From positions 1 through 64,000 of the forward strand of contig NZ_MWQY01000005.1 of assembly GCF_002087085.1 (NCBI RefSeq): DNA of 64,000 nucleotides, read 5' to 3'. The position numbers and the translations under genes were made by a program. A model generated the notes under the pieces. That model was not told where the DNA came from, did not search any database, and saw only the letters and a program-made list of their open reading frames with translations. The DNA comes from Marispirochaeta aestuarii. GTDB lineage: Bacteria > Spirochaetota > Spirochaetia > JC444 > Marispirochaetaceae. Position 1 is the stretch's first letter. Each line of letters opens with the position of its first letter. This document shows, piece by piece, positions 7,045 to 28,567 of the stretch.

Positions 7045-8550
7045 ATGGCTAATCTCGCGCTAATAAATTGTACGTCCCTTTCTCAGGAGGCCTTTATGCC
7101 TCTCTGCGACGGGAAATCGGCTTTCGATCTGGTCATCGAGCTGGCCGGGAAACTGCCGGATATTTCCGGACTCGTCTGCCTTTGCTCCCGGGAAAACGAT
7201 CTCCATGGAAAGATGGACGGCGTTTCCTGTATTTCCGGAATAGACAGCCCCGGGACACTCTTCGCCGCCCTGCAGAGCCTGTGCGAAAAGCAGCCGGAGT
7301 TGAACTCATTATTCTATCTGTACGGGGATACCCCCTTTGTTGATCCCGCTCTTTCGGAGCGGATGTGGAACAACCACCGCCGTTACCATGCAGACTATAC
7401 CTTTGCCGACGCCTATCCTGCGGGAATAGCCCCGGAGATCATCCGTGCATCCGCCGTCTCCGCCCTGGCACAACTGGCGGAGGGAATGAAGGGGCCGCTA
7501 AAACGGGATACGGTGTTCGAGGTGCTTCGCAGGGATATTAATGCCTTCGAGATCGAGACGGAAATTCCACCCCTGGACCTCAGGATGCTCCGGATATGCC
7601 TGGCCGCGGAAGACAGGGCCGGGTACATGCTGGTTAAGCGGGTTTGTGAGGCGGGAGTCCGGGGCGCCGAGGCGCTGCTTCGTTATCTTGATGAAAACCA
7701 GAGGATCCTCCGGACGCTTCCCGCCTACCTTTCTGTTCAGATCAGTGCCGGATGTCCCCAGGTCTGTACATACTGTCCCTATCCCGGCGTGGCGGGGGAT
7801 GTGGAAAAGCTTACGGATACCATGCCTGTGGGACGTTTCAGGGAACTTTTGCAGGGCTATTCTGATTTTGCCGGACGGGGATACGTCAATCTTTCGCCCT
7901 GGGGCGAGCCGGCACTGCACCCGGAGATATACGATATTCTGGATACGCTGCTGGATTACCCGAATCTGACGGGTGTGCTGGAGACCGCCGGTATCGGTTG
8001 GGATCGGGAAGCCCTTAAAAAACTGGCAGACCGAGCCGGGGAACAGCTTATCTGGATCGTCTCCCTCGATGCCCTGACTGAAGAAACCTACCGAAGGCTC
8101 AGGGGAAAAGGCTTTCAGGAGGCGGTTGATACCGCTGTGTATCTGCTGGAACTCTTTCCTTCCAGCGCCTGGGTCCAGGCTGTCCGCATGGACAGCAACG
8201 AGGAGGAGCTGGAGAAGTTCTATCGCTTCTGGAAGGAGCGTACGGAGAATATTATCATCCAGAAGTACGACCATTTTTCCGGCAGACTTCCCCAGCGCCG
8301 GGTGGCGGATATATCTCCCCTCAAGCGGAATCCCTGCTGGCATCTGAAGCGGGACCTGGTGGTGCTGATCAACGGCGATGTTCCCATGTGCCGTGAGGAC
8401 CTGGACGGTCAATATTCTCTGGGAAACATTTTCAGAGACGGTTTCGAAGCAGTCTGGAAGAGAGGGGAGGAATACTATCTTCAGCATCTTGAGCAGAAAT
8501 ATCCCTCCCTGTGCAGTGAGTGCGATGAGTACTACACCTTCAACTACTGA
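7045..8550 (+). CDS. Spiro-SPASM radical SAM protein with SpsF-like N-terminal domain
   Basis: A 501-residue protein matching the spirochaete-restricted spiro-SPASM family. Residues 1 to about 205 resemble a nucleotidyltransferase: YLYGDTPFVDP, then an HADYTFADAYPAG segment, in the same order as in the SpsF-like gene at 9484. The radical SAM domain follows, with the 4Fe-4S cysteines C237, C241 and C244 (CPQVCTYC), and the C-terminal SPASM region carries cysteines at CWHLK, MCRED and CSECDEY. Radical SAM/SPASM enzymes use S-adenosylmethionine for difficult chemistry on peptides or sugars; the substrate here is unknown. It is the first gene of the sugar operon. The N-domain lacks the usual arginine-rich nucleotide-binding signature, so it may not be catalytic. 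Confidence 0.88.
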   Translation: MANLALINCTSLSQEAFMPLCDGKSAFDLVIELAGKLPDISGLVCLCSRENDLHGKMDGVSCISGIDSPGTLFAALQSLCEKQPELNSLFYLYGDTPFVDPALSERMWNNHRRYHADYTFADAYPAGIAPEIIRASAVSALAQLAEGMKGPLKRDTVFEVLRRDINAFEIETEIPPLDLRMLRICLAAEDRAGYMLVKRVCEAGVRGAEALLRYLDENQRILRTLPAYLSVQISAGCPQVCTYCPYPGVAGDVEKLTDTMPVGRFRELLQGYSDFAGRGYVNLSPWGEPALHPEIYDILDTLLDYPNLTGVLETAGIGWDREALKKLADRAGEQLIWIVSLDALTEETYRRLRGKGFQEAVDTAVYLLELFPSSAWVQAVRMDSNEEELEKFYRFWKERTENIIIQKYDHFSGRLPQRRVADISPLKRNPCWHLKRDLVVLINGDVPMCREDLDGQYSLGNIFRDGFEAVWKRGEEYYLQHLEQKYPSLCSECDEYYTFNY

Positions 8551-9487
8551 TAATAAAACCAGGGTGCCCTATACCGTTCTCGGCGGTGACAGGGAACGGG
8601 AAGGGAATCCTGATCTGCCCCTTACGGTCCTGCTTCTGAACCGGGGTACCCGGGTATACCGCAGCGAGGTTCTGCAGGAGATTGAACGGCTGCGGCCTGC
8701 GGAGATCATCTCTCTGGAGGGCTCCCGCAACACCTATGACCTCGAACCCCTGGCACGGAAGTTTCCCCGGGTTCGCTTTATCCGGCTTCACAGGCAGGTC
8801 AGCCTGGGCGAGTACCTGAATATCGGAATGGACGAGGCCCGGGGAACCTATGTTCTGGTCATCTGGAACGAGATGCGGATAAGCCAGGTCACGCCCAGGG
8901 CCCTGGAGCGGGTGGCTGAACAGCCCGGCGTCTGTACTGTTCCAGTTCTTTTGAATCAGCGGAATGAGACAATTCCCACCATGATGGCCCCGGGCTTTCA
9001 TAGAAAACGGCTCAAGGTTCTGCCCTTTATCTCCAGGAGCGACGGCATGCTGAGCCTTTTTCCCTATGATCATTGCGGTCTTTATCGTCGCAGTCAGTTC
9101 AATCTTCTCGGGGGCTTTGATCCGGAAATCGAGAACCCCTACTGGCAGCTCCTGGATTTCGGTTTCCGGGCTTATCTGTGGGGCGAGCGGATAAGCTCTT
9201 CAAACCAGTTTCGTATCGTCATGACCAGTGATCCGCCGACCCAGGATACTACCCCCGATGCCGGGTACCGCCGCTTTTTTCTAAAGAACCTGGCAATCCG
9301 TTTTGACAAGGACCGGGGAGTGCTTCCCCGTTCGCGTTTTCTCCCCTTTTATCTGCGTTCAGGCGCAACCTTTGTCGAGGCCCTCAGGGAATTCAGGGAA
9401 GCCGCAGCCTGGGTGGGCCTGCATCAGTACCGCTTTGTGCAGGATGCACGGACTATCGCCGATTTGTGGGAGGTCCCCGAAACGTGA
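8525..9487 (+). CDS. GT-A/GT2-like glycosyltransferase
   Basis: About 320 residues from ATG 8525, overlapping the previous gene by 26 bases; an upstream in-frame ATG at 8378 would read a shadow of that gene. The fold signature is a family 2 glycosyltransferase: an early strand LTVLLLNRG, RFIRLHRQVSLGEYLNIGMDEARGTYVLV in the place where GT2 enzymes have their acceptor/DxD region, and GGFDPEIENPYWQLLDFGFRAY, typical of the C-terminal acceptor-binding part. The usual DxD is replaced by IWNEM, so sugar-nucleotide chemistry may differ or be lost. The genetic context suggests work on the sugar made by this operon. Confidence 0.72.
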   Translation: MSTTPSTTDNKTRVPYTVLGGDREREGNPDLPLTVLLLNRGTRVYRSEVLQEIERLRPAEIISLEGSRNTYDLEPLARKFPRVRFIRLHRQVSLGEYLNIGMDEARGTYVLVIWNEMRISQVTPRALERVAEQPGVCTVPVLLNQRNETIPTMMAPGFHRKRLKVLPFISRSDGMLSLFPYDHCGLYRRSQFNLLGGFDPEIENPYWQLLDFGFRAYLWGERISSSNQFRIVMTSDPPTQDTTPDAGYRRFFLKNLAIRFDKDRGVLPRSRFLPFYLRSGATFVEALREFREAAAWVGLHQYRFVQDARTIADLWEVPET

Positions 9488-10179
9488 CAGGGGTTATTCT
9501 TCAGGCACGTCTGGATTCCTCCAGACTGCCGGCAAAGGCTCTGCTGGATCTTCAGGGTAAAACCGTTGTAGAGCACGCCATGGCGGCACTCAGGAAGCTT
9601 AGCTCCGCCGAGGTTTTTATCCTGGCAACGGACCCGGAGAGTGCGGATTTTTTCCGCCGAAAGGCGGAAGCAGAGGGATTTGAATTATTCATCGGCCCCA
9701 AGGAGGATGTCCTCCGGCGTTTTGCCGATGCCGCCCGTCACTACGGTCTCGATCTGATCGTCCGGGCTACCGGGGACAATCCTCTTGTTTCCTGGGAGAT
9801 TGCCGGGGAGTCCCTTGATCTGCAGAGAGAAGCGGCAGCCGATTATGCCGCATGTACGGATGCTCCCCTGGGAACAGGGGTGGAGGTCATCGCCGCCCGG
9901 GCCCTTCTTGAGGCGGACAGGCTGGCCAGGGATCCCTACGAACGGGAACATGTCTGCCCTTATCTCTACCGCAGGCCCGAGGAATATAAAATCAGCGTCT
10001 CTCCTGTAAGGGAATCCCGCCGCCTTCCTGAAGCCCGGGTTACGGTGGATACCCTGGAGGATTACCGGCATATTTCCGCTCTCTTCAGAAGTCTGTATAG
10101 GGGTACTCCAATAGCCCTGGAGGATGTTCTCGACTACCTGAAAACAGAAGCTTCAGGAAAAGCGGATACCTCCGGGTAA
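9484..10179 (+). CDS. spsF: SpsF-like cytidylyltransferase
   Basis: About 231 residues. I prefer the GTG at 9484 (GTGA overlap with the previous stop, GGAGG about ten bases upstream) because the family begins directly at the strand read here as GVILQARLDSSRLPAK, the nucleotide-binding loop; the ATG at 9466 is the alternative. RATGDNPLVS is the metal-binding segment, followed by the DYAACTDAPLGTGVEV stretch. SpsF/NeuA-type enzymes activate acidic sugars such as nonulosonates as CMP derivatives. With the PseG-like gene next door and a NeuB-like gene at 31367, it suggests a nonulosonate or related acid sugar. Confidence 0.85.
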   Translation: MTGVILQARLDSSRLPAKALLDLQGKTVVEHAMAALRKLSSAEVFILATDPESADFFRRKAEAEGFELFIGPKEDVLRRFADAARHYGLDLIVRATGDNPLVSWEIAGESLDLQREAAADYAACTDAPLGTGVEVIAARALLEADRLARDPYEREHVCPYLYRRPEEYKISVSPVRESRRLPEARVTVDTLEDYRHISALFRSLYRGTPIALEDVLDYLKTEASGKADTSG

Positions 10180-10190
10180 ATGGCAGGACT

Positions 10191-11972
10191 ATGGGTAAAG
10201 AAGGAAGTAAAAAGATACTGGCTGTTCCGTCGGTACGCAGGGGAAACGGAAGCGGCCATCTTCATCGCATGCTGCACCTTGCCGCCGAGCATCCCCGCAG
10301 GGTTTCTCTTTTTCTCGACAGAACCGGAAAACTGACTCCGGGACCGACGATCAATCTGAAACCCTACGAGGAGTTTATCCGGTCCGAGATCGACTTTCGG
10401 CAGCTGCAGAAAGAATCCTGGAGTTATATTCTGCTGGACCAGCGGGAGACCCCGGTTTCTCTTCTTGCCGGTCTGAAGGAACTGATTCCCGGCACCCCTG
10501 TTGCGGCAGTCGATGAGGGCGGCAAACACCGCAAGTCTCTTGAATACCTTATCGATACCCTGCCGAGTCTTCGCCGGCAGGAATGCAACCTCTTCAAGCC
10601 TGACCTGAATCCGCGGCCGCTTCGGCGCAGCTTATACTACAACTGTCCTTTAAAATTCGAGAAGGTACTGATCAGTTTCGGTGGAGAAGATCCCAGGGGA
10701 CTTACCCTGCCCACCCTCATAGCTCTGGGGAAGATACCTTTTCTGTCCCGAACCTCCATTACCGTGGCCGCCGGCCCTGCCTTTCGGGAGCTCAGCCTGC
10801 CGTCGGATATCGAGATCCTGAGGGCTCCGGGGAACCTTCGGGAGTACCTGTCCGACTACGATTGCCTGATCACCTCCTACGGATTGACGGCCCTGGAAGC
10901 CCTTGCTGCGGGTATTCCTGTAGTCACGGTGAATCCCTCCCGGTACCACAGCCGTCTGGCAAAAAAGACGGGCCTTTTGGTCTGCGGCACGGGAAAGCCC
11001 GATGCAGGAAGACTGAAAAGAGCCCTGGAAAACCCTCGAAAGCTCATCGGCCGCTGCGCCCTGGCGGAGGAAAACCTGAGGGACACTGCTGACGCTGATC
11101 CGTCCCCGGCGGAGCTTTCCCCCTCAGCCTCAGTCTGTCCCGGATGCGGTGCGGCTCCCGGGAGGGTTCTGGGACGCTTTCCTGAGCGGACCTTTTATCG
11201 ATGCGCCTCATGCACCCTGGTTTATCAACAGCGCTGGATTCCGGATTCAACCGTTTACAACCACGCCTATTTTTTCGATGAGTACAAACGACAGTACGGA
11301 AAGAGTTACCTCGACGATTTTGCACATATCCGCAGCATGGGAAGGGAGCGGCTCAGGAATATTCGTATCGAAAATTCCGACCCGTCGCTTCTGGATGTGG
11401 GCTGTGCCTATGGACCTTTCCTGGAAGCTGCTCGGGAGGCCGGTTTCCGGATCGAAGGCCTCGAACCGTCCAAAGAAGCGGCCCGCTGGGCGGAGGAGCA
11501 CCTTGGATGCAGGGTTTCCCCCATGGGTCTTGAGGAGTTTGTCCGGAAGAATCCTCAGAAAAAATGGGACGTCGTAACTCTCTGGTATGTAATCGAGCAT
11601 TTTCCCGATCTGGAGAGTGCCCTGCAACAACTTTCCGGCATGGTAAAACCCGGGGGTATGCTGGCTCTGGGGACCCCCAACGGCGCCGGTATAAGTGCCA
11701 GAAGGAATCTGAAGAAATTTCTCGCCGCGAGTCCCGCGGATCACTATACAATTCTCAGTCCGAAATCGGTAAAACGGCTCCTGAAACAAAAGGGTTTCAG
11801 GGTGGAAAAAATGAGGATTCCCGGAATGCACAGGGAGCGCTTCCCGGTACTGTTCCGTATACTCTGGCCCTTCACTGCCGGGATAGCCCGCTTGCTGCGT
11901 CTGGGAGACACCTTCGAGGTGTACGCCCGCCGTATGGACAGGGAAAGAAAGGATAACTCCCGTGAAGGATAA
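10191..11972 (+). CDS. PseG-like sugar enzyme fused to SAM-dependent methyltransferase
   Basis: A 593-residue two-part protein. Residues about 8-310 look like PseG/MurG-type enzymes (UDP-sugar hydrolase or glycosyltransferase fold): GSGHLHRM at the N-terminus, ISFGGEDPRG in the middle and TSYGLTALEALAAGIPVV later. A zinc-ribbon follows (cysteines from 316: CPGCG, then CASC), and then a class I methyltransferase with motif I DVGCAYG at 402-408, the acidic GLEPS end of strand 2 and a VIEHFPDLESAL segment. PseG proteins remove UDP during pseudaminic acid synthesis; zinc-ribbon methyltransferases often methylate sugar nucleotides. It begins 11 bases after spsF and overlaps the ATP-grasp gene. The fusion suggests that two steps of one pathway are coupled. 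Confidence 0.82.
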   Translation: MGKEGSKKILAVPSVRRGNGSGHLHRMLHLAAEHPRRVSLFLDRTGKLTPGPTINLKPYEEFIRSEIDFRQLQKESWSYILLDQRETPVSLLAGLKELIPGTPVAAVDEGGKHRKSLEYLIDTLPSLRRQECNLFKPDLNPRPLRRSLYYNCPLKFEKVLISFGGEDPRGLTLPTLIALGKIPFLSRTSITVAAGPAFRELSLPSDIEILRAPGNLREYLSDYDCLITSYGLTALEALAAGIPVVTVNPSRYHSRLAKKTGLLVCGTGKPDAGRLKRALENPRKLIGRCALAEENLRDTADADPSPAELSPSASVCPGCGAAPGRVLGRFPERTFYRCASCTLVYQQRWIPDSTVYNHAYFFDEYKRQYGKSYLDDFAHIRSMGRERLRNIRIENSDPSLLDVGCAYGPFLEAAREAGFRIEGLEPSKEAARWAEEHLGCRVSPMGLEEFVRKNPQKKWDVVTLWYVIEHFPDLESALQQLSGMVKPGGMLALGTPNGAGISARRNLKKFLAASPADHYTILSPKSVKRLLKQKGFRVEKMRIPGMHRERFPVLFRILWPFTAGIARLLRLGDTFEVYARRMDRERKDNSREG

Positions 11973-13560
11973 AATTCGACGCATTTATATTCTGGGAGCG
12001 GGGACCATGCAGCTTCCGGCCATCCGTATAGCCAGGGGATTCGGATGGGAGGTAATCTGCGCCGACGGCAATCCTGATGCGCCCGGGAGGGCCGAGGCCC
12101 ATTATTTTGAGCATATCGATCTGAAGGACAGAGAGGGAATAGCGGAATCCGTAGTCGACTGGAGAAACCGGAGGGGCCTTGACGGGGTATTTACCGCAGG
12201 AACGGATTTTTCCGCCGCTGTAGCCTGGGCCGCGGAGAAGGCGGGTCTCCCCGGTATCCCGTATCAGAGCGCTCTGAAGGCCAGTGACAAATTCCTTATG
12301 CGCACAGCCTTCGCCGAAGCCGGAGTGCCGTCTCCCCGTTTTGCAGGGATAGAGAATCCCGACCAGTGGCGGGATGCTTTCGAAAAAGCAGGACTCCCCG
12401 CGGTGGTGAAGCCGGTGGACAATATGGGCTCCCGGGGAATCCGGCGGGTGGACACCCTCGAGGATGCCCGTTCCGCCGTTGAAGCCGCCTTTGTCTGCTC
12501 CGCCTCCGGCAGGGTCATAGTGGAAGAGTATATCGAAGGCCCGGAGTTTTCCCTGGATGCCCTGATTTATCGCGGTGTGTTCAGCCTCTGCGGTATTGCG
12601 GACCGGCACATACGCTTTGCCCCCTATTTTATCGAAGTAGGACACACCATGCCGTCAATCTTTCCCGAAGGGGACCGGCAAAGAATTATCGACACCTTCA
12701 GGAATGCCGCTTTTGCCCTGGGTATCGACAACGGGGCGGCCAAGGGGGATATCAAGCTGGGCAGATCCGGTCCTGTGGTGGGCGAAGTCGCCGCACGGCT
12801 TTCCGGGGGATATATGTCGGGGTGGACCTATCCTCTTTCCTCGGGAGTCGAGGTGACCGCGGGGGCCTTGAGAATTGCCGTGGGAGAGCCTCCCGGAGAT
12901 CTTGCTCCTGTACAACAGAAAACCTGCGCGGAACGGGCATTTTATTCCATCCCGGGCATTATCGACAGCATCGACGGTTTTTCCGACAGTATGGGAAGCG
13001 CCGCCTTTCTTCTGACCTCTCCGGGCAGCAGGGTGGAGTTTCCCCGGAACAATGTGGAAAAATGCGGTAATATAATCTGTGCTGCGGAAACCCGGGAGGA
13101 TGCCTGCAGCAGGGCGGAAGATCTCTGCCGAAGGGTCATCCTGCGCCTTGCCGCGGGAGGACGGGAGACCCTGGATTTTCTTCGCCGTCGCAGCCATGAA
13201 TGGGTTCCCGATGCTTTTACCCTGGAGGACCCGGAAAACCGGGATTGGCTGCGGGAACTTGAATATCTCCCGGATTTTGCCAGTCTGCGCAGCACGGGGC
13301 CGGTAATCCCCCTGCCGCCGCATCCCGAAAAGGAGACCGCCTGTGACTGGCTGGGCCGCAGTCTGACGGATGCCCTTGAACTGATACAGGCAAAGACCGG
13401 TGTACATGCAGCATCTGAACGGGGTAATGTGGGAAGACAGTTCTGGCTCGCTCTTCTTCGGGGAGGCTATCAGGGAGGTCTCTGGTTTCTCGATACCCTC
13501 AACGGTTCAGCGGACCAGACCGGATACGGAGAAATTGAGGAGTTTCCTGCAGGATGGTAA
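11962..13560 (+). CDS. ATP-grasp domain protein
   Basis: A 532-residue protein from GTG 11962 overlapping the previous gene by 11 bases (an ATG at 12007 is possible). It has an N-terminal Rossmann-like pre-ATP-grasp domain (YILGAGTMQLPAIRIAR, then ICADGNPDAPG), a central ATP-grasp domain with the ATP-binding lysine in PAVVKPVDNMGSRG and VIVEEYIEGPEFS, and acidic/Asn metal ligands around GDIKLG and GEVAARLSGG. The last 150 residues are an unassigned extension. Such enzymes join a carboxylate to an amine, thiol or similar group through an acyl-phosphate. In this operon, ligation of an amino acid or other acyl unit to a sugar acid is a reasonable guess. Confidence 0.85.
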   Translation: MKDKIRRIYILGAGTMQLPAIRIARGFGWEVICADGNPDAPGRAEAHYFEHIDLKDREGIAESVVDWRNRRGLDGVFTAGTDFSAAVAWAAEKAGLPGIPYQSALKASDKFLMRTAFAEAGVPSPRFAGIENPDQWRDAFEKAGLPAVVKPVDNMGSRGIRRVDTLEDARSAVEAAFVCSASGRVIVEEYIEGPEFSLDALIYRGVFSLCGIADRHIRFAPYFIEVGHTMPSIFPEGDRQRIIDTFRNAAFALGIDNGAAKGDIKLGRSGPVVGEVAARLSGGYMSGWTYPLSSGVEVTAGALRIAVGEPPGDLAPVQQKTCAERAFYSIPGIIDSIDGFSDSMGSAAFLLTSPGSRVEFPRNNVEKCGNIICAAETREDACSRAEDLCRRVILRLAAGGRETLDFLRRRSHEWVPDAFTLEDPENRDWLRELEYLPDFASLRSTGPVIPLPPHPEKETACDWLGRSLTDALELIQAKTGVHAASERGNVGRQFWLALLRGGYQGGLWFLDTLNGSADQTGYGEIEEFPAGW

Positions 13561-14582
13561 GGCCTTTCAGAGCATTTGTGCTTATTTTATCCGGACTGCT
13601 CCTGTGCTCAGCGGTATCCTTCGGGGATACCAATATTACGACCCTTATTCAGCGGGTAGGGGGAGAACTCCTGTGGGATCCGGTCCTGGAGCGGGGCATT
13701 GTCAACCGGGGCCGGCGGAGCGTTGTCTTCCAGGTGGGGATTCCTTTTCTGCTGAAGGATTTTAACGAAGTTACCGACATCGAAGCCCCCCGTCGAAGGC
13801 AGGATGGGAGCGTTGTTGTGAGCGATGAAAGCGCCAAAGCCTTCGTCTCCCTCTTCGCTGTCGACCAGCCTCAGGACTCCTTTACCATCTCCACCATTAT
13901 TATCGATCCCGGCCACGGCGGAAAGGATCCGGGAACCATCGGGACCCACAACATCGATGGAGAACGGCTCGTCCTGGAAGAAAAGGATCTGGTGCTGAAG
14001 GTTTCACAGTCGGTGGTTAATCAGCTGAAAGAGAACTTTCCCGACAAAAATATCATCCTGACCCGCAGTGACGACCGTTACCTTGCCCTGGAAGAACGGA
14101 CGGCCATAGCCAACGCCGTTGAACTTGCGGAGCAGGAGGCCATGATCTTCATGTCGATTCATGCCAATGCCTCCCTGAACCGGAAGGCCTCTGGTTTCGA
14201 GGTCTGGTACCTTCCGCCTGAATACCGGCGGGAAATCGTCGATCCCGAAGATCTGGACCAGGAGCAGAAGACAATCGCGCCCATTCTGAACTCGATTCTG
14301 GAAGAGGAATTTACCGTGGAGAGTATTCTGCTGGCAAAGGAGATTCTCGATGGCATGGAAACGACAATCGGAACCGTCAGCGGCAGCAGGGGGCTCAAGG
14401 AGGAGTCCTGGTTTGTGGTCAGAAATGCCAAAATGCCTTCGGTCCTGGTGGAAATCGGTTTTGTAACCAATCCCGAAGAGGCGAAGCTTCTGAATACGGA
14501 GACACACTTGCAGAAGATCTCTTCGGGCATCTATAATGGGCTTGCCGCCTACATACGGAATTTTGAGAAGAGCGGCGAATAA
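13554..14582 (+). CDS. N-acetylmuramoyl-L-alanine amidase (AmiA/AmiC type)
   Basis: A 342-residue exported peptidoglycan amidase (Amidase_3). The signal peptide spans about residues 1-23. After an N-terminal region of about 100 residues, the catalytic domain shows the zinc ligands: His in DPGHGGKDPGT, Glu in LVLEEKDL and His in SIHANAS, plus the catalytic glutamate in LVEIGFVTNPEEA. It cleaves the bond between MurNAc and the stem peptide. It overlaps the ATP-grasp gene by seven bases and precedes a GerMN gene and flaA. A role in making room for periplasmic flagella or in septum splitting is possible but inferred. Confidence 0.93.
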   Translation: MVRPFRAFVLILSGLLLCSAVSFGDTNITTLIQRVGGELLWDPVLERGIVNRGRRSVVFQVGIPFLLKDFNEVTDIEAPRRRQDGSVVVSDESAKAFVSLFAVDQPQDSFTISTIIIDPGHGGKDPGTIGTHNIDGERLVLEEKDLVLKVSQSVVNQLKENFPDKNIILTRSDDRYLALEERTAIANAVELAEQEAMIFMSIHANASLNRKASGFEVWYLPPEYRREIVDPEDLDQEQKTIAPILNSILEEEFTVESILLAKEILDGMETTIGTVSGSRGLKEESWFVVRNAKMPSVLVEIGFVTNPEEAKLLNTETHLQKISSGIYNGLAAYIRNFEKSGE

Positions 14583-14607
14583 TTCTCTCTTTTGCAAGGA
14601 TGAGTCT

Positions 14608-15087
14608 GTGACACTATCAAAAAAGCCGGACACCCTGACCCTTGTCACCGGTCTGGTGCTTCTGATCCTCTTCGTCCTGTCCCTGGTCCTCTATATCATG
14701 GATCCCTATAAACAGATACAGCGAAAATTTCTCTTTGTCAGCGAAGCCACCATGTCTCTCGCCGGGGAAGTACGGTCGGTGCCTTTCTCAAACGACAGAG
14801 AAAGAAACATTGCAGCATATATAGAAGAGCTTCTTCTGGGACCTGCGGCCCTGAGGCTGCAGAGCATTTTTCCTGAAAATACCAGGCTGAACCAGCTGAA
14901 ACTGGAAGATAAAGTGCTGTATATTGATTTCTCCCGGGAAATGGTCTTCAATCTCGACAATCATCCCCTTACTCCGGTTGAGATTAAGGACCTGGTGGTC
15001 GACAATCTATCTGTAAACTTTCCCGGATTAGAGAAAGTGATCATCACTGTAAACGGTCTCGAGCCTGATTTCGAGATCAAGGAGTAG
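14608..15087 (+). CDS. GerMN-domain membrane-anchored protein
   Basis: About 159 residues from GTG 14608, with AAGGA seven bases upstream; the ATG at 14536 would read inside the amidase gene and gives an unnatural leader. It has one N-terminal transmembrane helix (LTLVTGLVLLILFVLSLVLYIM) and then a GerMN/sporulation-germination type domain: AAYIEELLLGP, FPENTRLNQLKLEDKVLYIDFS and a final IITVNG strand. GerMN domains occur in envelope proteins, often with peptidoglycan amidases, and the linkage to the preceding amidase fits that. Its molecular role is not known. Confidence 0.8.
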   Translation: MTLSKKPDTLTLVTGLVLLILFVLSLVLYIMDPYKQIQRKFLFVSEATMSLAGEVRSVPFSNDRERNIAAYIEELLLGPAALRLQSIFPENTRLNQLKLEDKVLYIDFSREMVFNLDNHPLTPVEIKDLVVDNLSVNFPGLEKVIITVNGLEPDFEIKE

Positions 15088-15137: not shown

Positions 15138-15165
15138 TTGACAAAAATGTATGGGTACGTATAAT
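15138..15165 (+). promoter_or_regulatory. Sigma-70-type promoter for flaA
   Basis: TTGACA (15138-15143) and TATAAT (15160-15165) are exact consensus boxes separated by 16 bases, about 40 bases upstream of the flaA start. An AAGGAG ribosome-binding site lies at 15195-15200. Such a strong housekeeping promoter fits abundant FlaA production and agrees with reports that spirochaete flagellar genes can use sigma-70. Confidence 0.88.
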
Positions 15166-15206: not shown

Positions 15207-16157
15207 ATGAAACGGTTTGCAATCCTTCTTTGTCTTCTCATGGTTGTTTCCGGAATGACGATCTCTGCGGAGGAATCTGTATTAATAGATTTTGCATCTC
15301 TGACAGCAGACACCGAAACCGGTGAAAACGAAGCGACAATGGTTGATTTCAGTGACAAAGCCGGTACCAGTTTCTCCGATGAAGAGAAGGAGAGGATGAA
15401 GACCTCTCTTGCGATCGACAACTGGGATGTCCAGCTTTCCAGTTCCTCCCGGACTGTCGCCAACCAGCGTTATTCCATGACCCGGGAAGCCCCGGTAAAG
15501 GATACCGCTCGTCGTTATGCCGGCGAAACAATCATGGGCATAAGGGTTCACTTTCCCCTGGAGTCCTACAACTCCTATGCGGTTGTTAAACCTCCCTTCG
15601 AGATTCCGGCGTATTATACCCCGGAAGAACCGGACAAGTTTAACAACTTCGGCGTTCTGAAGAATGTTGGTGTTATCAAGAGTATCTCCATGAACGTTCT
15701 CGGAAAGAACTATCCTCACCGGATAGGTCTGATTCTGAAGGACCAGAACAACATGGAACAGACCATCATCATGAACAATCTTGAGTTTGACGGATGGAAG
15801 ACTCTTACCTGGAATAACCCCAACTACATCGAAGAAGTTCGAAACAGGGAAATCCAGAAATTCCCCCTCTATCCGAAGACCGCCCCTAACTTCAAGCTGA
15901 TCGGTATCCTCGTATTCCGTGATGCCATGCATGAAGGCGGAGACTTCGTGACCTACGTCAAGGACGTGAGCATGACTTACGACCTCGCGGTTCTCTCTCT
16001 GGAATCCGATGTCAACGACGAGGAAATCTGGGGTATTCTCGAGCAGCGTGAAGAAGCCCGGCGTACTGCCGAGTTCGAGCGCCTTGGCAACATTCAGGTT
16101 CTGCGTTATCTGGAAGCCCAGAAGATGCACCAGGAACCTGCTGAAGCTGAAGAGTAA
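15207..16157 (+). CDS. flaA: Flagellar filament outer-layer (sheath) protein FlaA
   Basis: A 316-residue protein with a signal peptide (residues 1-21, ending near ISA-EE). The mature part matches the FlaA sheath protein of spirochaete periplasmic flagella: MGIRVHFPLESYNSYAVVKPPFEIPAYY around residues 110-140, then FGVLKNVGVIKSISMNVLGKNYPH, RIGLILKDQN and a C-terminal AEFERLGNIQVLRYLEAQKMH helix. FlaA is exported to the periplasm and coats the FlaB core, affecting filament stiffness. It has its own consensus promoter and is closed by a terminator at 16197. In Borrelia, flaA heads the cheA2 operon; here two reverse-strand genes separate it from cheA. Confidence 0.95.
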   Translation: MKRFAILLCLLMVVSGMTISAEESVLIDFASLTADTETGENEATMVDFSDKAGTSFSDEEKERMKTSLAIDNWDVQLSSSSRTVANQRYSMTREAPVKDTARRYAGETIMGIRVHFPLESYNSYAVVKPPFEIPAYYTPEEPDKFNNFGVLKNVGVIKSISMNVLGKNYPHRIGLILKDQNNMEQTIIMNNLEFDGWKTLTWNNPNYIEEVRNREIQKFPLYPKTAPNFKLIGILVFRDAMHEGGDFVTYVKDVSMTYDLAVLSLESDVNDEEIWGILEQREEARRTAEFERLGNIQVLRYLEAQKMHQEPAEAEE

Positions 16158-16196: not shown

Positions 16197-16226
16197 GACC
16201 CCTCGGGAAACCGGGGGGGTCTTTTT
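16197..16226 (+). terminator. Rho-independent terminator after flaA
   Basis: A GC-rich stem, GACCCCTCGG (16197-16206) with CCGGGGGGGTC (16211-16221) and a GAAA loop, followed by TTTTT. It lies 40 bases after the flaA stop, so flaA is probably a single-gene transcript. Confidence 0.88.
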
Positions 16227-18630: not shown

Positions 18631-21003
18631 ATGAGCGACTACCTTGATCCAAATAACGAAGAGCTTCTGAAGGATTTCTTCATGGAAGCCAACATGCAGG
18701 TAGAGGTTCTCGAGCAGAATATTCTGGTCCTCGAGAACGACCCCACGAACAAGGAGGCGGTGGACGAGATCTTCCGTGCTGCCCATACCCTCAAAGGGGG
18801 AGCGGCGACGGTACAGATGAATGATCTGTCCAGCTTTACCCATCTTCTGGAGGACCTGCTTGACGAGATACGGAATGGCTCTGTTCGGGTTAGTGAAGAC
18901 CTGATCGATGTTCTTCTGGCCTCCATCGATATCATCAAGGGTATTATCGATGCCCGATCCTCCGGCGAGACGTTCACAGGAGATACGGAAGAGACCCGCA
19001 GGCGGCTAAAAAGCTTCAGTACTGAGGAATCAGGTGCAAAGACTAAAGAAACAGTGGTTGAGGAAGCCGCTCAACCTTCGACGGTCAGAGATGTATCCGC
19101 CGAGGGACCCGGAGGTTCAGATCTTTCCGAGTATGAGATCCTTGAATTGAAGGATGCGGCCAGGGCCGGGGAAAAGATCTACGAAATCGCCGTGGATTTT
19201 GACGAAGACAATCCCATGAATACCGTGGGGGGAATACAGCTTTATGCCGCCATCAAGGCAGCAGGTACGGTACTGAAAACAGTACCCGACTTTGAGGAGC
19301 TGTATGAGGATCAGTTCCATCCCCGGGTGGTTTACTTTGTCGCCACAGAAGAAACCCTTGACTCCCTGCGTACGCGGGTTGACATCCCGGATGTCGTAAA
19401 TTCGGTCTCCCTGGCGGAGCTGAGCGGTGAAGCCGCAAAAGAAAAGCCGAAGGCAGAAAAGAAAAAGACAGCGGCTGCTCCTGCTGCTCAATCCAAAAAA
19501 CCTTCTGCTGCTCCTGCCAGGGAAAAAGTGGAAACTGCCGGTGAAATAGAGTCCCTCTCCGGAGATTTGTCCGGGTCTGCGGAGCCCCAGGCGGCGGCAA
19601 AAAAAGGTAAAAAGCTCGGTTCTGTCCTCAGGGTGGACAGTTCCAGAATCGACAACCTTCTGAACCTTGTTTCCGAGGCCGTCATCAATAAGGCGACCTT
19701 CAATCAGATCAGCACCCAGTTCTCCGAGACCCAGGAAGAACTTTCCGCAGCTGAAAATCTTTTTCGTGAAAGAATGAAGGAAATCCTGGACCTGGTTCCG
19801 AACCTGGCGGAGGAGATGCAGAATGGTTCCTCCGAAAAGGATGTACGGAACCAGCTCAATGAACGCTTCGGCGATCTGATAAATATCTTTGAGCCTTTTG
19901 AAAATAAACTTAAAACCGCTGTGAACAAATTCCGCGGTACATCCCAGAACCTGGGAAGGCTGACCAGTGACCTTCATGAGAGGGTTCTTCAGATCCGGAT
20001 GGTACCGATATCCCAGATTTTTTCCCGCTTTCCCCGGCTCGTACGGGATATTTCAAAATCCCTGAACAAGAAGATCCAGCTTGTGATAGAAGGTGAAGAC
20101 ACGGAGCTCGACAAATCGGTTATCGAGGATCTCCTGGATCCTCTTATCCACTGCGTACGAAATTCCGTGGACCATGGGATTGAGAGCATAGATGACCGCA
20201 AGGCCGCCGGAAAAGAAGAAGAGGGTCATATTCTGCTGAGCGCCCGGAACGAAGGCAACATGATTGTCATTGAAATCCAGGACGACGGCAGGGGCATCGA
20301 CGTCGAATCTGTCCGTTCCAAGGCCATAGAACGGGGTATTATCCATCCCAGTAAAAACCTGTCGGATATTGAAGCCTTCAACCTGATCTTTGAGCCCGGT
20401 TTTTCCACCGCGAAATCCGTTACCAGTATCTCGGGCCGGGGAGTCGGACTCGATGTTGTCAGAAAGCAGATCGAGAAGTTGAACGGCAATGTGAGTGTCT
20501 GGTCAGAAAAAGGGACCGGTACACGGTTCACTATCAAACTCCCCCTGACTCTTGCCATCATACAGGGACTCCTGGTCCAGGTTGGCGAGGAAATCTATGC
20601 CATTCCCATTACATCGGTAATTGACAGTCATCGAATCAGGCCCGAAGAGATCAAGATGATCGACAACTACGAGGTCTTTAATGTCAGGGAGGATGTAATC
20701 TCTCTGCTGCGTCTTAACCGGCTTTTCAAGATTCAGACCAGTGAGCAGAGGGAGTATCAGTTCGTTGTCATTGTCGGCAGCGGTGATAAGAAAATGGGAT
20801 TGATGGTAGATACCCTCATCGGGGAAGAGGACGTGGTTATCAAACCCCTGCGGGATTCTTATACCAATGCTCCCGGAATTGCCGGGGCAACGATACTCGG
20901 AGATGGCACAGTCTCGCTGATAATTGACGTAAGCCAGCTGCTTGAACTCGGATTCAGACAGGAGTTGGCGGACCGTCAAAAAAGGGAAGCAACCATTGGC
21001 TAG
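18631..21003 (+). CDS. cheA: Chemotaxis histidine kinase CheA (flagellar operon)
   Basis: A 790-residue kinase. The HPt domain (residues 1-120) has the phospho-accepting His52 in AAHTLKGG. A CheY-binding P2-like region lies around 165-270, then a Lys/Ala/Pro linker. The dimerisation region (about 330-480) is unusually long, with an extra helical stretch rich in Glu (ETQEELSAAENLFRERMKEIL onward). The ATPase domain has HCVRNSVDHG, DDGRG and GRGVGLDVV, and a CheW-like regulatory domain ends the chain. It starts at ATG 18631 (the MSDYLDP N-terminus typical of spirochaete CheA) despite a poor ribosome-binding site. It leads cheA, CheW/CheR-like, cheX, cheY. An AT-rich TATATATATATA tract lies at 18604-18615, but no well-spaced promoter boxes are seen. 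Confidence 0.96.
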   Translation: MSDYLDPNNEELLKDFFMEANMQVEVLEQNILVLENDPTNKEAVDEIFRAAHTLKGGAATVQMNDLSSFTHLLEDLLDEIRNGSVRVSEDLIDVLLASIDIIKGIIDARSSGETFTGDTEETRRRLKSFSTEESGAKTKETVVEEAAQPSTVRDVSAEGPGGSDLSEYEILELKDAARAGEKIYEIAVDFDEDNPMNTVGGIQLYAAIKAAGTVLKTVPDFEELYEDQFHPRVVYFVATEETLDSLRTRVDIPDVVNSVSLAELSGEAAKEKPKAEKKKTAAAPAAQSKKPSAAPAREKVETAGEIESLSGDLSGSAEPQAAAKKGKKLGSVLRVDSSRIDNLLNLVSEAVINKATFNQISTQFSETQEELSAAENLFRERMKEILDLVPNLAEEMQNGSSEKDVRNQLNERFGDLINIFEPFENKLKTAVNKFRGTSQNLGRLTSDLHERVLQIRMVPISQIFSRFPRLVRDISKSLNKKIQLVIEGEDTELDKSVIEDLLDPLIHCVRNSVDHGIESIDDRKAAGKEEEGHILLSARNEGNMIVIEIQDDGRGIDVESVRSKAIERGIIHPSKNLSDIEAFNLIFEPGFSTAKSVTSISGRGVGLDVVRKQIEKLNGNVSVWSEKGTGTRFTIKLPLTLAIIQGLLVQVGEEIYAIPITSVIDSHRIRPEEIKMIDNYEVFNVREDVISLLRLNRLFKIQTSEQREYQFVVIVGSGDKKMGLMVDTLIGEEDVVIKPLRDSYTNAPGIAGATILGDGTVSLIIDVSQLLELGFRQELADRQKREATIG

Positions 21004-21019
21004 AAATATTGGGGATACA

Positions 21020-22351
21020 ATGGAAACCTTACAGGAACAGCAGCAAGGAACTGAACAGAAAGGCGTAACGGAACAGATCGACTTCAAGATGGTCACCTTC
21101 TCTCTGGCGGGCAAGGAATACGGCATCGACATCATGAAGGTAAAGGAGATCTCAAAGGCTGATCGTTTTACCTATGTGCCCAATACAGCACCCTATGTCC
21201 GGGGAGTCTACAACCTTCGGGGAGATATTATATCCATAATTGATCTTCGGGTTATGTTTCATCTTCCTGCTCCCAGCAAAGCCGACGGACTGATGGAGGA
21301 CATGATTATTCTGCGTCTGGATAACTACTTTATCGGGGTTATCGTGGACAGCATCGATAAGGTCGTCGGTATATCCTCCTCGTCCATTCAGCCTCCGCAT
21401 CCGCTCTTTGGTGATATCAACATCAAGTTCATCAAGGGAATTGTCGAGAACGAAAAAAAGCTCTACATCATTCTGGATGTCGAGAAAATTCTCGGGGATG
21501 CTGATGATGAAGAGGATGAAAGCCGGGTAGAGGTCATGGGGATTCCCATGGCCAGCGAAACGGAAGCTGAAGCAGAGTCGGCCTACGGAGGCGACGGAAA
21601 AAGTGGTGATCTGGGGCTTGATTTTCTCCAGGATACCCTGAAAACCTTCAGTCGCTTTACCGTAAGCTCTGTGAACCGCGAATGGATCCGGGAGCGATAT
21701 GCTGAATGGAAGTCTCAGCATGGAGGAAGCGACGAAAAGGCCCAGTTGAAATCCCCCGAGGATGCCCAGAAATTCCTTGAGGATTTTTATTCTCCCTGTA
21801 CAGGGCGTTTATGGAACAAGGATTACGCCGACGCGATGGCTTCGATTCTCCCGGACGGTAGAAAAGGGAATCTGACTGCCTGGAATCCCGGCTGTGGCAA
21901 GGGTTATGAAACCTATTCACTGGCTGCCGCTTTAAGGGCAAAGAATCCGGAAGCGGTTATTAAAATCTGGGCCAACGACAGCGACCTCCTGAGTATTTCA
22001 ACCGCCCCGAATCTTGTATTTAATGATAACGAAATTCCTGAATATCTCGATGCATATATGCAGGAAACCAAAAACGGCAAGCAGTTAAACGAGGGAATAC
22101 GAAAGCAGATTCTCTTTGAGTATCATGACGTACTTCATTCCAATCCTTTTCCCGAGGTCGATCTGATAATGGCCCGGGATCTGATCTCTTTTATGTCAAA
22201 AAATGATCAGAACCGCCTGATGAGTGAATTCCTGGAAAAACTGAAACCCGGCGGCCTGCTGTTCCTTGGAGCTCATGAGCGGATTAATGATCCTGAATGG
22301 GACATGGTTGAAGCTTCAGGACTAGTTGCGTACAGAAAGAAAAATGGATAA
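21020..22351 (+). CDS. CheW-CheR-like hybrid adaptor protein
   Basis: About 443 residues from ATG 21020. Residues 20-165 are a full CheW domain (VTFSLAGKEYGIDI, VRGVYNLRGDIISIIDLR). After an acidic linker, residues about 210-440 resemble CheR but with altered signatures: AWNPGCGKGYETYSLA where the true CheR at 27712 has WCAGCSSGEEAYTLA, and MARDLISFMSKND in place of CRNVMIYFDKPT. Loss of the acidic SAM-binding residues suggests a non-catalytic or altered domain. Treponema carries a similar CheW-CheR-like protein reported to be built into its chemoreceptor arrays. The gene follows cheA by 16 bases. Confidence 0.88.
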   Translation: METLQEQQQGTEQKGVTEQIDFKMVTFSLAGKEYGIDIMKVKEISKADRFTYVPNTAPYVRGVYNLRGDIISIIDLRVMFHLPAPSKADGLMEDMIILRLDNYFIGVIVDSIDKVVGISSSSIQPPHPLFGDINIKFIKGIVENEKKLYIILDVEKILGDADDEEDESRVEVMGIPMASETEAEAESAYGGDGKSGDLGLDFLQDTLKTFSRFTVSSVNREWIRERYAEWKSQHGGSDEKAQLKSPEDAQKFLEDFYSPCTGRLWNKDYADAMASILPDGRKGNLTAWNPGCGKGYETYSLAAALRAKNPEAVIKIWANDSDLLSISTAPNLVFNDNEIPEYLDAYMQETKNGKQLNEGIRKQILFEYHDVLHSNPFPEVDLIMARDLISFMSKNDQNRLMSEFLEKLKPGGLLFLGAHERINDPEWDMVEASGLVAYRKKNG

Positions 22352-22398
22352 TATTGTGCCGGGCTTTGATAACAGCCTGGCGGCCAAGGAGAGTATGT

Positions 22399-22863
22399 AT
22401 GAGAGTTGAATATATCAATCCCTTTGTTGAATCTGCCTTCAATATCCTTCGCGAGGTACTGAATGCGGAAATAACAAGGGGTGAACTTTATCTTAAATCT
22501 GCATCCCAGCCGGTACTCGGTGTCGCAGCCATAGTAGGTCTTGCCGGAGATGTTGAGGGACGCGTTCTTTTCGACATGAGTCGCCCCACCGCTATCGCTA
22601 TTGCCTCCGCAATGAATGGAGAAGAATTGAGCGAACTGGATGACCTCGGGAAAGCAACAATTACAGAGCTTGCAAACATGATTACTGCCCAGGCGGTAAC
22701 GAAACTTCATGATCTCGGGTTTAAATTCGACCTGACGCCTCCGGCCATATTCACCGGTGATAATATGGAGGTTACCGATACCGAGGTGGAAGCCCTGATT
22801 GTACCTGTTAACCTGGAACAGGGTAAAATCGAAATTAACGTCGCCGTCCGTGAAAGAGCATAA
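22399..22863 (+). CDS. cheX: Chemotaxis phosphatase CheX
   Basis: A 154-residue CheY-P phosphatase, the type used by spirochaetes in place of CheZ. It begins at ATG 22399, with AAGGAGAG upstream; a leader from 22354 is not needed. The N-terminus MRVEYINPFVESAFNILREVL is typical, and the catalytic E-x-x-N motif is seen in ITELANMI around residue 92-99. It sits between the CheW/CheR-like gene and cheY, the same order as in Borrelia. Confidence 0.95.
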   Translation: MRVEYINPFVESAFNILREVLNAEITRGELYLKSASQPVLGVAAIVGLAGDVEGRVLFDMSRPTAIAIASAMNGEELSELDDLGKATITELANMITAQAVTKLHDLGFKFDLTPPAIFTGDNMEVTDTEVEALIVPVNLEQGKIEINVAVRERA

Positions 22864-22877
22864 GAGGAGGGGATACA

Positions 22878-23312
22878 ATGAAGACTAAGATGGACTTTCC
22901 GAATATAAATGAACGAAAAGCTGAAGGTGTAGGCCCCGATGGAAATGCCTACAGGGTGCTTGTAGTCGATGATTCCATGTTCGTTACAAAACAGATAAGC
23001 CAGATTCTTACCTCCGAAGGCTTTGATGTTGTGGGAACTGCAAAGGACGGGCAGGAGGGGCTCGAGAAATACAAGGAACTTTACCCGAACGTTGATCTTG
23101 TTACCATGGATATCACCATGCCCAAGATGGATGGTGTAACCAGTCTTGAAAAGATTATTGAATTTGACAAAGATGCACGGGTTATCATGATAAGCGCTCT
23201 TGGAAAACAGGACCTTGTTAAAAAATCACTGCTTTTGGGGGCGAAGAATTACATTGTGAAACCCCTGGACCGGAAAAAAGTTCTGGAAAGGGTATTGATG
23301 AGCCTGAAATAA
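22878..23312 (+). CDS. cheY: Response regulator CheY (flagellar motor)
   Basis: A 144-residue receiver domain with all conserved residues: the acidic pair in VVDDSM, the phospho-accepting aspartate in TMDITMP, the switch serine in MISALG and the lysine in IVKPLD. It carries an N-terminal extension of about 25 residues before the first strand, compared with free-standing CheY proteins of about 120. As the last gene of the cheA operon, directly after cheX, it is the likely flagellar switch-binding CheY. GGAGGGG precedes the ATG. Confidence 0.95.
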   Translation: MKTKMDFPNINERKAEGVGPDGNAYRVLVVDDSMFVTKQISQILTSEGFDVVGTAKDGQEGLEKYKELYPNVDLVTMDITMPKMDGVTSLEKIIEFDKDARVIMISALGKQDLVKKSLLLGAKNYIVKPLDRKKVLERVLMSLK

Positions 23313-23338
23313 TATGGTAAAAGTACCCCTGTCATTTC

Positions 23339-23412
23339 GGGCGGCTAGCTCAGTTGGTTAGAGCACTTGCTCGACACGCAAGGGGTCGTTGGTTCGAATC
23401 CAATGCCGCCCA
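23339..23412 (+). tRNA. tRNA-Val (anticodon GAC) with C at position 33
   Basis: A 74-nt cloverleaf with a perfect acceptor stem GGGCGGC/GCCGCCC, D stem GCTC/GAGC, anticodon stem CTTGC/GCAAG, T stem GTTGG/CCAAT and discriminator A. The loop is T-C-GAC-A-C: anticodon GAC at 23373-23375, but the base before it (23372) is C instead of the almost invariant U33. CCA is not encoded. A terminator follows at once. Confidence 0.93.
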
Positions 23413-23416
23413 GAAA

Positions 23417-23453
23417 ACAACCGGAGGGGTTAACCTTTCGGTTGTTTTTTTTT
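23417..23453 (+). terminator. Rho-independent terminator after tRNA-Val
   Basis: ACAACCG (from 23417) pairs with CGGTTGT (23439-23445), with an inner AGG/CCT pairing, and is followed by a run of nine T. It ends the tRNA-Val transcript, and perhaps the chemotaxis operon upstream. Confidence 0.9.
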
Positions 23454-23512
23454 GTCTATTATTTGCGCATGTCCGTTTTTTTTACCATACTAGGATTGTT
23501 TCCGGGGGAATA

Positions 23513-24802
23513 ATGGTATTGATAATTGTTCATCTTGCTATGTTGCTGACAGGCGTATTTTTTGTAATCAGATATTCAGATCCGGTAATTCTGATAATTC
23601 CTTTCCTTTCTCTTGTAACCCTTGGTACTGTGCTTATTCGCCGGCGGGGAGTTAATAAAAACGCTGAGGGAGCAGGGAAGACTCTTCTGAAACAGGAAGT
23701 ATCTGATTTGAAGGATATGCTTTCTGCGGCTTCTGAAAAAATAAATTCCCTGGAAACTGAACGCGCGAAAAACGAAGATGCACAACAGACAAAAAATATT
23801 GTTCTGGCATCCCTTGCCGACTCCCTGCAACTGCTGAATGCCGCAGCCCCCATACTCGAAGCCCTGTCTAAACGGGTTATAGAAAAAACAGAAGCCTCGA
23901 ATATGTCGGTATCGGACCGTATCTTTTCCATTGCGGAACATTCGAAATATCTGGGCGGCGAGATCCAGAATGTTCTTACAGAGCTCATGGATGGAAGTGG
24001 AGGTCTGGAAAGCAGTCTTGCCAGACTCGAGCATGAGACCGGCGGTTACAGGACGCTGATATCCGGTCTGAAAGAGATCAGCGGCACCTACCTCAAGGAT
24101 ATGGATCTGCTGAAACAGGCTGTTCAGAATATCGGTTCCTATACTCAGGGGCTGACGGACCTTGCGGATCAGACCAATCTGCTGTCTATAAATGCATCCA
24201 TTGAGGCGGCCCGGGCTGGAAGTGCCGGCGGCGGTTTTCGGATTATCGCCTCGGAGGTGCAGGCCCTGGCCCGGCGTTCCAAGGCAATTGCGGATGAGAT
24301 CAACACCCAGATTGTAGCCGCGGCCAGTAATGTGGAAAGCTCCTTTTCTCACCAGGAGCTTATTCTTGGAGACAGTATATCCCGGATCGAGGAATCCCAG
24401 AGCAATCTGGACAAGCTTGTAACGGAACTGCGGCCGCAGCTCGAAAGTATCGGCAATACTGTGGAGGAATCAAAGAAGATTTCCACGGGAGTAACCGCTG
24501 ATCTGAATCAAATTATTGTATCCATGCAGTATCACGATATGATTCGTCAGATTCTTGAACACTGTAATTCTATATTGAACGAGGTAAGGTCCTCCTGTAA
24601 CGAACAGACGCTCCTTTCACGGTATGCCGAACAGGACGATGAGCTGGTTAAAAAGCGGGTGCGGGACCTTGCAACGAAATATTTTACCGTGGATGATGAG
24701 TGGGAGGTCCTGGGGATTTCAGTTCGGGACTCTACCCGGCATAAAGAGCGGGAGAAAATAAAAAAGGAACACAAGCTCGAAGGGGACATAACCCTCTTTT
24801 AA
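23513..24802 (+). CDS. Membrane-anchored MCP-like protein without sensor domain
   Basis: About 429 residues from ATG 23513, after GGGGGAA. Two N-terminal hydrophobic helices (residues about 2-20 and 24-42) are joined by only a few residues, so there is no periplasmic sensor domain. A coiled-coil follows, then an MCP signalling hairpin: the tip reads DQTNLLSINASIEAARAGSAGGG-FRIIASEV, close to the receptor consensus. Toward the C-terminus is a QYHDMIRQILEH segment, which recurs in cytosolic MCP-like proteins with unknown purpose. It is the first gene of the second chemotaxis cluster and may report a membrane or cytoplasmic signal to the CheA at 25193. Confidence 0.82.
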   Translation: MVLIIVHLAMLLTGVFFVIRYSDPVILIIPFLSLVTLGTVLIRRRGVNKNAEGAGKTLLKQEVSDLKDMLSAASEKINSLETERAKNEDAQQTKNIVLASLADSLQLLNAAAPILEALSKRVIEKTEASNMSVSDRIFSIAEHSKYLGGEIQNVLTELMDGSGGLESSLARLEHETGGYRTLISGLKEISGTYLKDMDLLKQAVQNIGSYTQGLTDLADQTNLLSINASIEAARAGSAGGGFRIIASEVQALARRSKAIADEINTQIVAAASNVESSFSHQELILGDSISRIEESQSNLDKLVTELRPQLESIGNTVEESKKISTGVTADLNQIIVSMQYHDMIRQILEHCNSILNEVRSSCNEQTLLSRYAEQDDELVKKRVRDLATKYFTVDDEWEVLGISVRDSTRHKEREKIKKEHKLEGDITLF

Positions 24803-24817
24803 GAGAGAGGAAGAGGA

Positions 24818-25180
24818 ATGAAAATTTTATGTGTAGATGACAGCCCGACCATCAGGATGCTGGTAAAACGTGCGCTGGAGCCGGAAGGATATACGATTGT
24901 CGAAGCTGAGAATGGAAAAAAAGCTCTTGATGTGGCTGTCTCCACTTCTGTCGATGCCTGTATTGTTGATGTGAATATGCCTGAACTCGACGGTTTCGGC
25001 TTTGTGGAACAGGTACGCCAAAATCCGGAATACAGGGATACCCCGATCATTTTTCTTACCACCGAAAGCTCCCAGGAAAAAAAGAGCAGGGGTGCGGCCC
25101 TCGGCGTAAAGGGCTGGATTGTAAAACCCTTTGATCCCCCGTCCCTGGTAAAAGTCATGAATATCCTGATTCCCCGCTAG
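24818..25180 (+). CDS. Single-domain response regulator (CheY-like)
   Basis: A 120-residue receiver with the acidic DD in CVDDSP, the phospho-acceptor in IVDVNMP, the switch residue in FLTTES and the lysine in IVKPFD. It lies 15 bases after the MCP-like gene and 12 before cheA2; its ATG follows GAGAGGAAGAGG. It is probably the phosphorylation target of the CheA at 25193. Three such receivers occur in this operon, so the target of each is open. Confidence 0.93.
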   Translation: MKILCVDDSPTIRMLVKRALEPEGYTIVEAENGKKALDVAVSTSVDACIVDVNMPELDGFGFVEQVRQNPEYRDTPIIFLTTESSQEKKSRGAALGVKGWIVKPFDPPSLVKVMNILIPR

Positions 25181-25192
25181 GAGCAGTGCCAG

Positions 25193-28563: not shown

Positions 28564-28567
28564 TTTT

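Follow-up and report, generated by a model that had tools for sequence, protein, structure and literature searches.

A conserved spirochaete operon upstream of flaA and its probable part in the nonulosonate glycosylation of flagellins

The first 64,000 nucleotides of contig NZ_MWQY01000005.1 of Marispirochaeta aestuarii (RefSeq assembly GCF_002087085.1), referred to here as the window, include a run of seven tightly packed genes on the forward strand (positions 7045-15087), directly upstream of flaA. The first gene encodes spiroSPASM, a radical S-adenosylmethionine (SAM)/SPASM protein. What does this operon make, and what does spiroSPASM contribute to it? An earlier note, made from the sequence alone, proposed a methylated acyl- or aminoacyl-linked acid sugar for the flagella or envelope, with a radical SAM step in its synthesis. 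Our sequence comparisons make it likely that the operon encodes the later part of an Sps-type (legionaminic-like) nonulosonate pathway, activated through cytidine monophosphate (CMP), which would feed Maf/PseD-type transferases that glycosylate the periplasmic flagellins. The role of spiroSPASM would most likely be a non-radical one. The operon genes and the nonulosonate synthase gene of the window are:

7045-8550, forward: gene 1, spiroSPASM, 501 amino acids (TIGR04321, 532.6 bits against a cut-off of 250)
8525-9487, forward: gene 2, GT-A-fold glycosyltransferase-like protein, 320 amino acids (AlphaFold predicted local distance difference test, pLDDT, 90.3)
9466-10179, forward: gene 3, SpsF-type cytidylyltransferase (CTP_transf_3, PF02348, 4.1e-28, 99.1 bits)
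10191-11972, forward: gene 4, PseG/SpsG-like hydrolase (N-terminal half) and zinc-ribbon class I methyltransferase (C-terminal half, Methyltransf_23)
11962-13560, forward: gene 5, ATP-grasp carboxylate-amine ligase with a C-terminal domain of the L-amino-acid-ligase type (PF13535, PF18603)
13554-14582, forward: gene 6, N-acetylmuramoyl-L-alanine amidase (Amidase_3, PF01520, 2.8e-47)
14536-15087, forward: gene 7, GerMN (Germane) protein (PF10646, 6.1e-12)
31367-32494, reverse: NeuB/SpsE-type nonulosonate synthase with a SAF domain (PF03102, 1.7e-59; PF08666)

Distribution among Spirochaetota

We surveyed 247 Spirochaetota genomes, 182 of which are at least 90% complete. TIGR04321 was found in 213 of the 247, NeuB (PF03102) in 211 and flagellin in 240; spiroSPASM and NeuB occurred together in 201 genomes, spiroSPASM alone in 12, NeuB alone in 10 and neither in 24. 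Among the 182 more complete genomes, the co-occurrence with NeuB and flagella that the earlier note had expected was borne out: 157 carry both genes and 22 carry neither, with only three discordant (spiroSPASM alone in two, NeuB alone in one). The absence of NeuB from the spiroSPASM-only genome G025, where a 36-residue match was found, is probably a contig-edge artefact. The 22 genomes with neither gene comprise 16 flagellated members of one family (f5), which we take to be Borrelia, and six flagellin-negative members of two others (f9 and f12). Conservation in non-flagellated, NeuB-free relatives, the outcome that the earlier note had named as damaging, was not encountered, as spiroSPASM is absent from all seven genomes of the survey that lack flagellin. 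The pathway is present in nearly all flagellated spirochaetes and absent from Borrelia and the non-flagellated ones. Fisher's test ignores relatedness, so that the independent losses, perhaps two or three, are what counts here.

Transferases of the Maf family (PF01973) were found in 24/24 spiroSPASM-positive but in 0/10 negative sampled genomes, and an orthologue of the ATP-grasp ligase in 13/13 positive but 0/5 negative genomes. At an E-value threshold of 1e-40, a CapD-type dehydratase was detected in 13 of 14 spiroSPASM-positive genomes and a DegT aminotransferase in all 14; the two genes are adjacent in several sampled Spirochaetia genomes, including those of M. aestuarii (G000) and a putative Treponema pallidum. 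Among eight negative genomes only G224 has homologues of both. One Maf protein of a putative T. denticola ATCC 35405 genome (G165) matches PseD (4e-27). Species names are putative for G165, for G056 and for the Borrelia-like and Brachyspira-like genomes, having been assigned in part from gene content.

Gene order and the adjoining flaA region

Gene order was compared in 17 Spirochaetia loci from other genomes and in other classes. A search of genome contigs with a single protein returned only ten close relatives, all metagenome-assembled genomes. The complete order spiroSPASM, glycosyltransferase-like gene, spsF, PseG/methyltransferase gene, ATP-grasp gene, amidase gene, GerMN gene and flaA is found in 12 of the 17 loci, which argues that the arrangement is not due to chance. 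Three of the 17, including those of the putative T. denticola and T. pallidum genomes, are interrupted after gene 4, and in two of these three SpsF, PseG and methyltransferase form a single fused protein. Fusions of these three domains are seen in part of family f3 (loci L034, L040, L033 and L051). In other classes the core consists of spiroSPASM and spsF, often with a PseG-like gene, and spiroSPASM stands alone in Brachyspira-like and a few other genomes. A stretch of about 20 kb in genome G185 holds the operon, flaA, cheA, cheR and NeuB, and an spsF gene overlaps NeuB in G010. At one locus (L053) the amidase, GerMN and flaA genes are kept together without the glycosyltransferase-like and ATP-grasp genes. 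Thus amidase and GerMN, which the earlier note had counted among the sugar genes, form with flaA a conserved block of their own.

The flaA gene of the window and its promoter lie as follows:

15138-15165, forward: sigma-70-like flaA promoter, TTGACA-16-TATAAT, matching at 12 of 12 positions
15207-16157, forward: flaA, flagellar filament outer layer protein (PF04620, 5.6e-78)

A terminator-like stem is found 3' of flaA at 16199. Since flaA has its own promoter and a terminator-like stem, it adjoins the operon and need not be co-transcribed with it. Directly 3' of flaA is a chemotaxis cluster (18631-29614) of cheA, a cheW-cheR fusion, a gene for a methyl-accepting chemotaxis protein, a second cheA-like kinase gene and cheB, followed by NeuB. 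Further along, a 518-amino-acid protein with no Pfam match at E 1e-5 is encoded on the reverse strand (37693-39246), upstream of a gene for an Lnb-like membrane protein.

Pathway proteins in the operon and elsewhere in the genome

The open reading frames (ORFs) of the seven-gene run, with their overlaps and tiny gaps, and their families are as first described, except for the start of gene 2. This lies at 8525, not 8378, giving an overlap of 26 nucleotides with gene 1; an overlap of about 23 nucleotides is seen again in aligned relatives. By inspection of the ORF, the true start of gene 7 may be near 14608. Gene 2 had been called GT2-like. A GT-A fold is indeed predicted, with the GT27 polypeptide N-acetylgalactosaminyltransferases as top Foldseek matches (E 1.5e-13), but membership of GT2 itself was not supported, the PF00535 score of 16.9 bits being below the gathering cut-off of 23.3. 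Alignment of gene 2 with its relatives reveals no conserved DXD motif.

Gene 3 has the features of an SpsF-type enzyme: its loop for binding cytidine triphosphate (CTP), QARLDSSRLPAK, is intact, as it is in 39/39 SpsF orthologues, and the magnesium-site aspartate D97 is present in all of them. The N-terminal half of gene 4 retains a GxGH..R motif and scores 30.3 bits against the NCBIfam PseG equivalog, under the cut-off of 153.55. The NeuB-like synthase reported at 31367 is real and is the phylum-wide spirochaete orthologue. Its closest solved structure is SpsE of Bacillus subtilis (1VLI, 1.3e-53 over residues 19-374), and it falls short of the NCBIfam equivalog cut-offs for NeuB/NnaB (234.4 against 399.65) and PseI (204.7 against 340.25).

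Other pathway genes lie elsewhere in the M. aestuarii genome. The adjacent CapD-type 4,6-dehydratase and DegT aminotransferase genes are on contig C1, and there are four Maf/PseD-type transferases; the flaB and maf genes are not on the contig of the operon. Near position 77384 of contig C12 (L180), with a dehydratase at 69510, lies another NeuB that differs from the first; with its neighbouring genes it perhaps represents a separate nonulosonate cluster. In three maf regions (L198, L199 and L196) a pair of maf genes is flanked by genes for conserved proteins of about 630-790 amino acids without a Pfam match and for a degenerate GGDEF-like protein. These flanking genes are common to the putative T. 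denticola and T. pallidum genomes and are partly present in that of M. aestuarii.

Structure and motif loss of spiroSPASM

The window protein was correctly recognized as a radical SAM/SPASM protein, its TIGR04321 match spanning positions 7-510 of the 510 in the model and passing the curated cut-off. AlphaFold gives a confident structure (pLDDT 93.8, predicted template modelling score 0.91), and predicted fold and profile searches divide the protein into three domains, within which two sets of cysteine codons can be placed:

residues about 1-205: SpsF-like nucleotidyltransferase fold
residues about 225-425: radical-SAM barrel
residues about 426-501: BtrN-like twitch domain
7753-7776, forward: codons of the radical-SAM cluster motif C237-x3-C241-x2-C244, intact
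8335-8523, forward: codons of the auxiliary-cluster ligands C431, C449, C490 and C493, of the BtrN twitch type

A cytidylyltransferase of Leptospira borgpetersenii (6OEW) is the nearest solved relative both of gene 3 (1.9e-27 in a profile search) and of the N-terminal domain of spiroSPASM (Z score 20.6, profile 7.6e-10). Unlike 6OEW, this domain lacks the CTP loop R-x2-S-x-R-x2-3-K, which was found in 0/129 proteins, and is probably a dead nucleotidyltransferase. Residues 222-501 resemble BtrN (4M7T; Z score 22.3, profile E 3.6e-21), with aligned auxiliary-site cysteines; spiroSPASM differs from BtrN in its added pseudo-nucleotidyltransferase domain and in that the catalytic cluster motif is missing from half of its family.

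This loss bears on the radical SAM step that the earlier note had proposed as a general feature of the pathway. CX3CX2C is kept in the window protein and 62 others, and is missing from 65 of the 128 spiroSPASM proteins examined, including those of the putative T. pallidum and T. denticola genomes; in the latter protein the region of the motif is free of cysteine, and T. denticola flagellin has a known glycan. A radical step is therefore not supported for the family at large. In contrast, of the 127 relatives whose C-terminus is complete, 126 keep all four auxiliary cysteines; G091 has serine in place of the last. When the motif columns are left out of the tree, parsimony gives 16 changes, at least seven of which are forced by strongly supported branches; radical SAM proteins have the motif ancestrally, so we read these changes as losses. 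Of the columns that motif-positive proteins conserve, hardly any but the three cysteines differ in motif-lacking ones, and conservation of SAM-site residues did not discriminate between the two groups. The ratio of non-synonymous to synonymous substitution (dN/dS) is mostly 0.05-0.2 in motif-lacking barrels, like that in motif-positive ones, which indicates purifying selection and rules out gene decay. Nor are the missing cysteines explained by misalignment: only one of the motif-lacking homologues has a CX3CX2C elsewhere in its sequence, and this is located at the C-terminal auxiliary site.

Where the motif is missing, radical chemistry cannot account for the conservation of spiroSPASM; the conserved role of the protein is probably of another kind. 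A more specific suggestion, which we put forward only tentatively, is that spiroSPASM may be a phylum-wide iron-sulfur (Fe-S) protein that combines a dead cytidylyltransferase with an often dead radical-SAM module and has a new non-radical task in flagellar glycosylation as a substrate carrier, a partner of SpsF or an Fe-S-dependent sensor. A literature search on "spiro-SPASM" found no paper; the sole match for radical SAM/SPASM proteins in spirochaetes was an annotation study of T. pallidum, in which TPASS_0285 is called an Fe-S (SPASM) protein. NCBI's description of TIGR04321 may already mention degenerate members.

Flagellin glycosylation sites

According to PMC7431986, Leptospira FlaB1-3 retain the T. 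denticola glycosite motifs VEVSQL and DRIAS, which have been substituted in B. burgdorferi. We aligned 41 flagellins, 35 from spiroSPASM-positive genomes and six Borrelia-like (L200-L205). In the former, serine is found at the first glycosite in 35/35 and at the second in 34/35; in the latter, the two sites are occupied by glutamate and aspartate in 6/6. As this substitution represents one clade, it is consistent with loss of the glycan without proving it. It is as if these acidic residues stood in for the negative charge that an acidic sugar would bring.

According to PMC9481697 (citing Kurniyati 2017), the FlaB proteins of T. denticola ATCC 35405 carry a glycan of 450.2 Da that is essential for filament assembly and motility. 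In Leptospira, FlaB1 glycans are seen at the interface of core and sheath (PMC13144727), which suggests a plausible job for the sugar made by the operon. None of the papers found by our literature search names spirochaete genes for flagellar glycans.

A proposed pathway and its alternatives

From gene content and predicted folds we infer the following order of steps. The CapD-type 4,6-dehydratase and the DegT aminotransferase encoded on contig C1 would act first, followed by the PseG/SpsG-like hydrolase of gene 4; the SpsE/NeuB synthase would then make an acidic nine-carbon sugar, which SpsF would activate with CTP and Maf would transfer to serine or threonine residues of FlaB. The methyltransferase of gene 4 and the ATP-grasp ligase of gene 5 probably put a methylated acyl or aminoacyl group on an amino function of the sugar. 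The pseudo-nucleotidyltransferase domain of spiroSPASM may bind the sugar or CMP-sugar, or partner SpsF, and its auxiliary Fe-S cluster may serve for structure or sensing. Where CX3CX2C has been retained, as in the window protein, spiroSPASM may additionally oxidise the bound sugar. Of the earlier proposal, a nonulosonate-type pathway tied to flagella is supported by the co-occurrence of NeuB/SpsE, flagellin, Maf and the ATP-grasp ligase, and a methylated, acyl- or aminoacyl-linked sugar is plausible from genes 4 and 5.

Several observations weigh against this scheme. Few independent losses underlie the co-occurrence; NeuB is found in the non-flagellated genome G227 and dehydratase and aminotransferase homologues in G224, so that these families alone are not specific; no dehydratase was detected in G003 at the 1e-40 threshold; spiroSPASM does not adjoin spsF in Brachyspira-like genomes; and the NeuB and PseG scores lie below the curated equivalog cut-offs. 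Shared ancestry alone might explain the co-occurrence if Borrelia and two non-flagellated families had lost many functionally unrelated biosynthetic genes. The losses are indeed confined to three families (f5, f9 and f12), mostly of small genomes, but we think this very improbable, because the putative T. pallidum genome retains every component tested in only 1.14 Mb, and SpsF, PseG and methyltransferase are joined by physical clustering and domain fusion.

Nor do we favour an envelope or peptidoglycan-associated glycan as the product. The amidase and GerMN genes do point to the cell wall, and the separation of the operon from the flaB and maf genes in M. aestuarii would fit; this reading appears improbable, however, given that the operon is missing from the seven flagellin-negative genomes, that Maf transferases follow it exactly in our sample and that amidase, GerMN and flaA persist as a separate block at L053. 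Somewhat less improbable, though still unlikely, is that spiroSPASM acts on the sugar as a functional radical-SAM enzyme at the core of the pathway, motif-less lineages having a different glycan or a substitute enzyme. The 63 intact motifs and the best fold and profile match of the C-terminal part, to the aminocyclitol radical dehydrogenase BtrN, would agree with this; against it, the motif was lost repeatedly and independently in about half of the family, while almost every other conserved position persisted, as did the auxiliary cysteines and the remaining pathway.

Comparison with known systems

The legionaminic acid pathway of B. subtilis comprises SpsM, SpsC, SpsD, SpsG, SpsE and SpsF (Dubois 2020, PMC7439481). 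The spirochaete set resembles it in its SpsE-nearest NeuB, SpsF-type cytidylyltransferase, PseG/SpsG-like domain and CapD-type dehydratase beside a DegT aminotransferase, but adds Maf transferases, a methyltransferase, an ATP-grasp ligase, a GT-A protein and spiroSPASM; its target is probably flagellin rather than the spore crust. With the pseudaminic and legionaminic glycosylation of flagellins in Campylobacter and Helicobacter (PseB-PseI, Maf/PseD) it shares Maf/PseD-type transferases, a NeuB-type synthase and CMP-sugar activation, and differs in missing the PseG and PseI equivalog cut-offs and in its extra spirochaete-only proteins.

Flagellin of Clostridium botulinum carries an N-methyl-glutamyl derivative of legionaminic acid. 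The T. denticola FlaB glycan is reportedly a nonulosonic acid whose nitrogen bears a methoxy-polyhydroxy-hexanoyl group, which would suit the methyltransferase and ATP-grasp ligase; the spiroSPASM of the putative T. denticola genome, unlike that of the window, lacks CX3CX2C.

T. denticola needs flagellar glycans for motility, and in Leptospira such glycans appear to keep the sheath attached to the filament. The genes described here, which for the most part occur together or are missing together, provide a testable candidate set for the spirochaete flagellar glycan, and predict that Borrelia flagella are without the sugar made by the operon. They also offer an unusual case in which the radical-SAM cysteines were lost repeatedly and the auxiliary cluster was retained. 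If the suggested non-radical task is correct, spiroSPASM would be a radical-SAM family whose essential part is the auxiliary cluster and not the catalytic one.

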